IMG/VR virus record: IMGVR_UViG_3300047550_002074
Span: 1 to 27,217 of that record
Strand: one strand, 5' to 3'
DNA from: a virus
DNA: 27,217 nucleotides
Shown one piece after another: positions 20,624-21,996 of this stretch. How positions within the stretch are numbered: the stretch's first letter is position 1; the number at the start of each line of letters is the position of its first letter. The position numbers and the translations under genes were made by a program. Under the pieces are notes generated by a model. The model made no database searches, was not told the DNA's origin, and saw only the letters and a program-made list of their open reading frames with translations.

Positions 20624-21058
20624 TCATTGTAGGTGTGATCTTAACATCCAAATAAATTTACCGTGCGATTCCATTAAATCTTGAACTAAATTAGCAGTAG
20701 CATATGACTTTTGTTCTTCTGCTTCTTCTGAGATTTCTACCATCAACTCACAAAACTTTTCGTTGTTTTCAAGAAGTTCTTGAAGCATTTCCTTTGCTCC
20801 TGTCGAACTTGCTGCCTCTTTAATTTGAGTTACCTCAAGCATTCTGGAGAGAGAACTGAGAGGTTTTACATTTAAGTATCTCATATGTTCTGAGAGACGG
20901 TCAATCTCTTCAAACATAGTTTCATACTGACCACCAAAGAGTTGATGAAGTTGAGTGAAATCTTCACCAACAACATTCCAATGAAATGCCCAAGTTTTAT
21001 GGAATAAAACAAAAAGTGATGACTGAGCATCACTGAGTAATTTATACAGTTTTTCCAT
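20624..21058 (-). CDS. dps: Dps-like ferritin (DNA protection during starvation)
   Basis: This 144-residue Dps family protein is a four-helix ferritin fold that normally assembles into a 12-mer storing iron and protecting DNA from peroxide. The ferroxidase residues at subunit interfaces can be placed on the E. coli spacing: H26 (H51), H38 (H63), D53 (D78) and E57 (E82). The position of D67 is G42, a change at a metal ligand. FHWNVVGEDFTQLHQLF is the most diagnostic stretch. No basic N-terminal tail is present, so non-specific DNA binding may be weak. An AAGAG ribosome site and a late-promoter-like GATAAATA (21075-21082) lie upstream. Confidence 0.9.
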   Translation of the reverse strand: MEKLYKLLSDAQSSLFVLFHKTWAFHWNVVGEDFTQLHQLFGGQYETMFEEIDRLSEHMRYLNVKPLSSLSRMLEVTQIKEAASSTGAKEMLQELLENNEKFCELMVEISEEAEEQKSYATANLVQDLMESHGKFIWMLRSHLQ

Positions 21059-21074
21059 TATACTCTTTTATTTT

Positions 21075-21082
21075 TATTTATC
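21075..21082 (-). promoter_or_regulatory. Possible T4-type late promoter before dps
   Basis: GATAAATA on the minus strand fits the NATAAATA late-promoter element of T4-like cyanophages and is 16 bp before the dps ATG. An 8-bp AT-rich match alone is weak evidence. Confidence 0.35.
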
Positions 21083-21085
21083 AAG

Positions 21086-21158
21086 TGGGCAATCACGGAT
21101 TTGAACCGTGGACTTTCTGCGTGTAAAGCAGACACTCTGACCGCTGAGTTAATCGCCC
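21086..21158 (-). tRNA. tRNA-Val (UAC)
   Basis: 73 nt. Acceptor GGGCGAT/ATTGCCC, anticodon arm CTGCT-TTACAC in the loop, T arm CACGG-TTCAAAT-CCGTG, discriminator A. Confidence 0.93.
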
Positions 21159-21162
21159 TTAA

Positions 21163-21223
21163 GGGTGGTAGGTATTCCCACTCGCATGTTGAGAAGGTAA
21201 TTAACCGTCAACCGCGACCACCC
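21163..21223 (-). ncRNA. 61-nt tRNA-like element between tRNA-Val and tRNA-Asn
   Basis: The ends pair perfectly (GGGTGGT with ACCACCC). A D-arm-like hairpin follows (GGT, loop with GACGGTTAAT, ACC), then a short CTC/GAG hairpin whose loop AACATGC contains CAU. Only about ten bases remain where a T arm should be. It lies 2-4 nt from a tRNA on each side. It could be a decayed tRNA or a processed small RNA. Confidence 0.45.
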
Positions 21224-21225
21224 AA

Positions 21226-21297
21226 CTCCACAACCTGGATTCGAACCAGGGACCAAGTGATTAACAGTCACCGACTCTACCGCTGAGCTATTGTGGA
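21226..21297 (-). tRNA. tRNA-Asn (GUU)
   Basis: 72 nt. Acceptor TCCACAA/TTGTGGA, D arm GCTC/GAGT, anticodon arm GTGAC-TGTTAAT-CAC, T arm CCTGG-TTCGAAT-CCAGG, discriminator G. Its first ten bases overlap the end of the 59-aa gene. Confidence 0.93.
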
Positions 21298-21467
21298 TTA
21301 CTTTTTTCTTCCTTATAAAGTTTGAAGTAAAGTTTATAATAACGTTTCTTCATTTCATCAATTGTATTCATATCATCTTCAAAACCCATATACTTGGTGA
21401 AGATATAGCAACCTTCTAATTCACTTAGAAGTCTTGCGATATTTATAGAATTAATTTCAACTTCCAT
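21288..21467 (-). CDS. Hypothetical protein, 59 aa, overlapping tRNA-Asn
   Basis: The 59-residue protein starts at ATG 21467; the open frame extends to 21641 only by reading through two tRNA genes, so that extension is rejected. It is helical and charged (NSINIARLLSELEGCYIFTKYMGF, MKKRYYKLYFKLYKEEKS). The last codons and TAG stop lie in the acceptor and D stem of tRNA-Asn. An exact CTATAAATA late-promoter-like match occurs inside the gene (21440-21448 on the minus strand). Function unknown. Confidence 0.65.
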   Translation of the reverse strand: MEVEINSINIARLLSELEGCYIFTKYMGFEDDMNTIDEMKKRYYKLYFKLYKEEKSNPQ

Positions 21468-21640: not shown

Positions 21641-21669
21641 ATCATAAACTATTTAAGTTTGATTGTCAA
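21641..21669 (-). promoter_or_regulatory. sigma70 promoter before tRNA-Gly
   Basis: TTGACA (21664-21669), 17-bp spacer, TATGAT (21641-21646) on the minus strand, in the 40-bp gap between tRNA-Leu and tRNA-Gly. Confidence 0.83.
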
Positions 21670-21753: not shown

Positions 21754-21849
21754 AGATGGAGTAAACGTAATATACCTCAAGGATATAACAGAGGCTTACC
21801 CTCTATCTTACCACGGCATTCTGGTTTATCTTTCCAGCGCAAGTGGTAA
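21754..21849 (-). ncRNA. Structured spacer RNA between tRNA-Arg and tRNA-Leu
   Basis: No coding frame is seen. A 7-bp outer stem, TTACCAC (21843-21849) with GTGGTAA (21808-21814), encloses CTGG/CCAG. A second hairpin, AGAGG/CCTCT (21790-21804), follows. It begins at the base after tRNA-Arg and ends where tRNA-Leu starts, so it is cut out with them. Confidence 0.45.
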
Positions 21850-21923
21850 CGTCTCAGGAGGGACTTGAACCCCCGACCAACTGCTTAGAAGGCAGATGCT
21901 CTATCCAACTGAGCTACTGAGAC
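21850..21923 (-). tRNA. tRNA-Arg (UCU)
   Basis: 74 nt. Acceptor GTCTCAG/CTGAGAC, D arm GCTC/GAGC, anticodon arm CTGC-CTTCTAA-GCAG, T arm GGGGG-TTCAAGT-CCCTC, discriminator G. It is the first tRNA of the main array. Confidence 0.95.
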
Positions 21924-21928
21924 AAGAG

Positions 21929-21996
21929 ACCCCCCTGTTTGAGCATTATAAAGAGGCTTGGGGGGTGAAGGATTTATGCGGAGTTTGGACCCCCGC
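21929..21996 (-). promoter_or_regulatory. Leader with alternative G/C hairpins before tRNA-Arg
   Basis: On the minus strand the leader has GCGGGGGT (21989-21996), then ACCCCCC (21960-21966), then GGGGGGT (21929-21935). The middle C run can pair with either G run, giving mutually exclusive hairpins. A second TATAAT lies inside (21946-21951) but has no matching -35. Confidence 0.5.

Follow-up and report, generated by a model that had tools for sequence, protein, structure and literature searches.

Introduction

RNAC and RNAD of phage T4 are situated in the T4 tRNA region. Both are described as small phage RNAs of unknown function (PMC9697503), and the 61-nt element reported here would likewise be a small RNA of a T4-type phage, lying inside a phage tRNA array and on its strand in all four distinct copies; in contrast, its host, length and fold come from cyanophage data, and we liken it to the T4 RNAs by description, claiming no relatedness. 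GOLLD and ROOL, also characterized as phage RNAs of unknown function, often occur near tRNA islands (PMC12286853), yet these are large, cage-forming molecules with many GOLLD members exceeding 800 nt (PMC12286853), whereas the element spans just 61 nt and matched neither family model in Rfam. A further comparison is offered by abiF RNA (RF03085), which shares with the element the character of a short structured RNA and a place in the same phage tRNA array, though at 37 nt and with another fold; the abiF model gave no match in positions 21060-21320 up to E 10. According to one report, a Clostridioides difficile RNA that carries a pair of abiF motifs counteracts the AbiF toxin both in cis and in trans (PMC12373285), and an abiF RNA in cyanophage S-CREM1 has already been published (PMC9964418). 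In our data, abiF RNA was present in three of the four distinct element carriers (the window, L093 and L139), and no AbiF-like protein was found among the 16 window ORFs scanned.

A 61-nt element with a predicted three-way junction

The window is the whole stretch of DNA analysed, the 27,217-base contig of the virus record, in which ARAGORN called ten tRNAs. Together with a ferritin/Dps-like gene, a wcaG RNA and blastn similarity, these tRNAs point to a T4-like cyanophage, and most of the blastn records matching the region (389 of 525) were Synechococcus phages and cyanophages. Within the array (Table 1), the initial annotation had marked a 61-nt stretch with a perfect 7-bp acceptor-like stem, 2-4 nt from tRNAs on both sides, and both observations hold: on the minus strand from 21223 to 21163 the element starts with GGGTGGT and ends with the fully complementary ACCACCC, with 2 nt separating it from the preceding tRNA-Asn(gtt) and 4 nt from the following tRNA-Val(tac), all on the same strand.

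Table 1. Features of the tRNA array around the 61-nt element, in window coordinates.
Feature	Position	Strand	Remarks
61-nt structured RNA element (predicted)	21163..21223	-	three-way junction of closing stem, long arm and short arm; MFE fold, four distinct homologs, covariation
tRNA-Asn(gtt)	21226..21297	-	upstream neighbour of element; ARAGORN and Rfam
tRNA-Val(tac)	21085..21158	-	downstream neighbour of element; ARAGORN and Rfam
2-nt spacer TT	21224..21225	-	from tRNA-Asn 3' end to element
4-nt spacer TTAA	21159..21162	-	from element to tRNA-Val 5' end
ferritin/Dps-like gene (dps)	20624..21058	-	downstream of element; anchor for sister-locus search
abiF RNA (RF03085)	21929..21965	-	Rfam, 54 bits; same array, upstream of tRNA-Arg
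sigma-70-type promoter-like site TTGACA-17-TATGAT	21641..21669	-	Leu-Gly gap; consensus match only

Evaluating the fold of this single-copy element, we obtained an MFE structure of -24.4 kcal/mol (shuffle mean -15.9, z -3.09) that beat 200 of 200 dinucleotide shuffles. The structure is a three-way junction, made of the closing stem GGGUGGU/ACCACCC, a long imperfect arm whose tip GGU-UAAUU-ACC had earlier been read as a D arm with GGTTAA, and a short arm GUGGG-AAUA-CCUAC, and the element still formed its own domain when folded together with both flanking tRNAs.

A rare family with compensatory changes

To collect sister loci, we anchored a scan on the protein of the downstream dps gene and kept the best 80 of 358. 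Among these 80, L004 was the sole carrier of the element, on a contig near-identical to that of the window (10,432 aligned bases with 3 differences), such that the element occurs in 2 of 81 dps-anchored loci (window included), both from one population, and the family is rare. Searching with DNA patterns from inside the element, we found another three distinct copies, each in a different viral contig (L093, L087 and L139), and all four distinct copies lie between tRNA-Asn and tRNA-Val on the same strand, 1-6 nt from the flanking tRNAs. One such pattern search gave 13 hits, three of which belong to the element family (L002, L087, L093); another gave 45, with four members (L002, L087, L093, L139) judged by printed context, pattern hits L101, L103, L104, L106-L138, L140-L142, L089-L091 and L094-L097 lying outside the scope of the covariance-model scans. 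When the four sequences were made into a covariance model and 86 sources searched, it recovered the five carrier loci (the window, L004, L093, L087 and L139) at 91.8-94.5 bits; the other 81 sources gave no match up to E 10. Element-model hits with mispaired or missing stems came from L086 (22.4 bits, E 0.0032) and L105 (17.8 bits), both biased in that an exact fragment of the element had served to retrieve these loci.

Comparison of the copies revealed that the junction is kept pair by pair. Between the window and L087, 7 of 61 positions differ, one of them loop site 25 and the other six forming three whole-pair swaps (from window to L087, G-C to A-U at 3/59, C-G to G-C at 10/39 and G-C to A-U at 15/33), while the additional changes in L093 and L139 are confined to unpaired positions 17 and 49. 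All 23 junction pairs are thereby intact in all four sequences, with 3 changed on both sides and none broken, and the MFE structure is identical throughout. The covariation score was reached by 2 of 500 shuffles and a double change by no slid control; when seven random substitutions were simulated, all pairs survived in 3,756 of 2,000,000 trials, and 9 of the 2,000,000 combined such survival with three or more double changes. Given four distinct sequences in two clades, these compensatory changes may lie on a single branch, and the two L087-type members fold more weakly (z -1.5 and -1.6, with 14 and 15 of 200 shuffles as good). The element is 60/61 identical between the window and L093, against 91-94% over two long aligned blocks, and is retained while its neighbours vary (tRNA-Val differs visibly between the window and L093, tRNA-Asn between the window and L087). 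On fold and covariation, the 61-nt element is very probably a conserved structured RNA.

Outside the family, we found no relatives. No Rfam 15 family matched the element (scan of 21060-21320 up to E 10), and blastn at E 10 against 50,697 phage records gave no homolog, its one chance match being a Lactobacillus phage tail gene (two records). A 23-letter pattern from the element had no hits in bacterial genomes; a stem-free pattern had 11, all searched with the covariance model, and 10 of these scored at E 10 solely over a short piece around the pattern letters, so that we rejected them as homologs. Also rejected was pattern hit L003, an exact 18-mer within apparently protein-coding sequence, in a locus with no tRNA, which we attribute to chance. 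As for a type III antitoxin RNA of the ToxI kind, tandem repeats are absent and the contig holds one element copy, and no toxin family matched among the 16 distinct window ORFs scanned (10 against Pfam and 10 against PHROGs, 4 shared). Our literature search, with subscription papers mostly and preprints wholly outside its scope, returned no description of structured non-tRNA elements between cyanophage tRNAs. Small phage RNAs are a kind already known; what appears new, within the searches made, is this particular family with its fold, along with the exchange of slot contents.

Contents of the slot and of other inter-tRNA gaps

We classed the slot, meaning the sequence directly upstream of tRNA-Val, in 85 loci by motif patterns chosen by eye. 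It held tRNA-Asn in 11 loci, tRNA-Leu in 11, tRNA-His in 9 and a tRNA missed by ARAGORN in 5; the 61-nt element in 5, a 55-nt two-hairpin element in 6, a paired-hairpin element in 10, a TCACTGC element in 3 and CATAGGTAAAG in 1; and a tRNA-Asn-like sequence without T-loop motif in 6, other gaps in 14, and no tRNA-Val was found in 4. These shares are not frequencies, as 3 of the 5 element carriers, and L085 among the TCACTGC carriers, entered the set through pattern searches. The tRNA-Asn-like sequence (L073, L075, L076, L079, L081 and L083) has a perfect CTGTTAA anticodon loop and no TTCGA T-loop motif.

Extending this view to the arrays at large, 81 distinct inter-tRNA gaps of 40-140 nt fell into 40 clusters, 30 of which had a z of -2 or less (median -2.8), figures inflated by a few real tRNAs that ARAGORN missed. 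Outer stems closed the whole gap in 16 of 40 clusters, compared with 80 of 400 shuffles. Two further gap families covary, one of ~43 nt (4/7 closing pairs changed on both sides, 42/42 cells paired) and one of 55 nt (2/14 pairs changed on both sides, 98/98 cells paired), with pairs picked by the analyst from the sequences, which favours both over slid controls. The element itself is not demonstrably kin to other gap elements, its best score of 27 being matched by 15 of 60 shuffles.

Several gap contents are recorded here as observations in their own right. The ~43-nt family has the core AGTGATCCTGCG...CAAGAGC (L061:4036-4078, L071:4779-4821, L035:1184-1225 and others). A module with the core GCGCTGG...CCAGAATGCC lies at window 21809-21848 on the minus strand and also in L013, L015, L025, L040 and others, with closing stems that differ among the Arg-Leu, Asp-Glu and Ile-Met tRNA junctions. 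By blastn, the Arg-Leu gap (21755-21850) matched S-RIM8, S-SZBM1, S-SRM01, S-RIM32, S-RIM50 and S-CREM1 over differing parts of the query, and S-RIM8 has no annotated gene under the match. A tRNA-sized element, GGAAGTTAAG...GTGTAAG...AACTTCC, in which the usual T loop is missing, occurs at L047:4284-4372 and elsewhere (14 distinct, 23 total), and a tmRNA (cyano_tmRNA, 112 bits) lies within the phage tRNA array at L040:3983-4234.

Such stable elements in so many gaps (30 of the 40 clusters), together with slot contents that vary freely between phages, would suit a structural spacer that folds fast and separates neighbouring tRNAs for correct processing, with no target of its own. We consider this role unlikely: in 31 of 85 loci tRNA-Val has another tRNA just 0-4 nt away, which indicates that a spacer is not needed, and the loops, bulges and most stem letters of the element are kept (52 of 61 alignment columns invariant), beyond what a spacer would require.

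Comparison with tRNAs

The initial annotation had proposed a tRNA-like RNA missing most of its T arm, perhaps a decaying tRNA, and suggested covariance-model scoring. Near-tRNA length, position between tRNAs, the 7-bp closing stem and a best local match to a tRNA-Asn (score 27) all speak for decay of a tRNA on its way out of the array, and the element does share with tRNA (RF00005) an acceptor-like closing stem and a place in the array; it differs in having no supported D, anticodon or T arm and in forming another, covarying three-way junction. ARAGORN did not call the element as a tRNA, and Rfam, searched over 21060-21320 with hits allowed to E 10, gave tRNA matches confined to the two neighbours. 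Compared with 337 distinct tRNAs, the element showed no significant similarity, and the tRNA-Asn score was equalled by 11 of 60 shuffles, so that derivation from tRNA-Asn was rejected as lying inside the shuffle range. The CUC/GAG "anticodon stem" had a pairing probability of 0.0, and the cloverleaf, as written out by the analyst from the earlier description, reached -11.6 kcal/mol, 12.8 kcal/mol short of the junction. The cloverleaf explains just one of the three compensatory swaps, the closing-stem one common to both structures, and the retention of all 23 junction pairs in four sequences argues against the cloverleaf and against decay alike. An intact tRNA at this place in a sister phage had been put forward as a sign of simple decay; intact tRNAs do fill the slot in 31 of 85 loci (plus the 5 missed by ARAGORN), and none of those compared is significantly similar to the element, which argues for replacement of slot contents rather than decay in place. 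On these grounds decay is highly improbable, and the element is probably a separate small RNA of a functional family rather than a broken tRNA.

A cis-acting signal (leader or attenuator) for the downstream dps gene or the tRNA-Val transcript would fit an element upstream of dps on the same strand, but has very little chance of being correct, as tRNA-Val and then a separate promoter-like site intervene, no U-run follows the stem, and dps is kept in other phages with other slot contents.

A proposed small RNA acting in trans

As a whole, the observations are best explained, with a probability of roughly 0.7, by a gene for a small non-coding RNA, located within a T4-like cyanophage's tRNA array, whose product would present a fixed shape and act in trans. 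From the candidate promoter at 21669-21641, the element would be co-transcribed with tRNAs in the order Gly-Leu-small ORF-Asn-element-Val; the promoter-like site in the Leu-Gly gap and the recurrence of the gap sequence in many sister loci make transcription through Gly to Val plausible. This site sits within a palindrome, TTGACAATC...GATTGTC. Immediately upstream of the abiF RNA, at 22038-22010, is another promoter-like site, TTGACA-17-TATAAT, which matches the consensus perfectly.

RNase P and tRNA 3' nucleases act at the ends of tRNAs, and from this known action we infer how the element could be released. Maturation of the tRNA-Asn 3' end and an RNase P cut at the tRNA-Val 5' end would leave a body of ~67 nt, which the closing stem would protect from exonucleases. 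The suggestion of a small RNA that uses tRNA processing thus stands in so far as the element is conserved, structured and 1-6 nt from its flanking tRNAs in 4/4 copies, the processing itself being a prediction; on sequence and position, release as a separate RNA is reasonably likely. Once freed, the element would have no role in translation and would most likely act in trans, its fixed shape offering loop letters (UAAUY, UUC, an A bulge and ARUA) to a protein. Possible roles are those of an antitoxin-like or decoy RNA against host defence, or of a regulator. The abiF RNA in the same array, a motif with antitoxin activity in C. difficile, makes a protein-binding and perhaps counter-defence role worth testing; we give protein binding even odds, and counter-defence in particular is a tentative and rather doubtful proposal.

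Implications for phage tRNA arrays

Annotation of phage tRNA arrays usually relies on tRNA finders alone, and such tools skip a conserved element in the Asn-Val gap, a gap that sister phages fill with tRNAs or other short structured elements. More speculatively, and at odds we regard as low, the tRNA arrays of T4-like cyanophages might serve as a plug-in platform for small RNAs. Such modules, constant in the core and free to covary in the closing stem, would move in and out of the spaces between tRNA genes, be released as the tRNAs are processed and neutralise RNA-dependent defence proteins of the host; abiF RNA would be the one module already recognisable, and the 61-nt element another. Should gap RNAs prove to be set free and to bind proteins of the host, phage-host interaction would have a layer that is missing from annotation, and the abiF RNA that shares this array provides a concrete first test.
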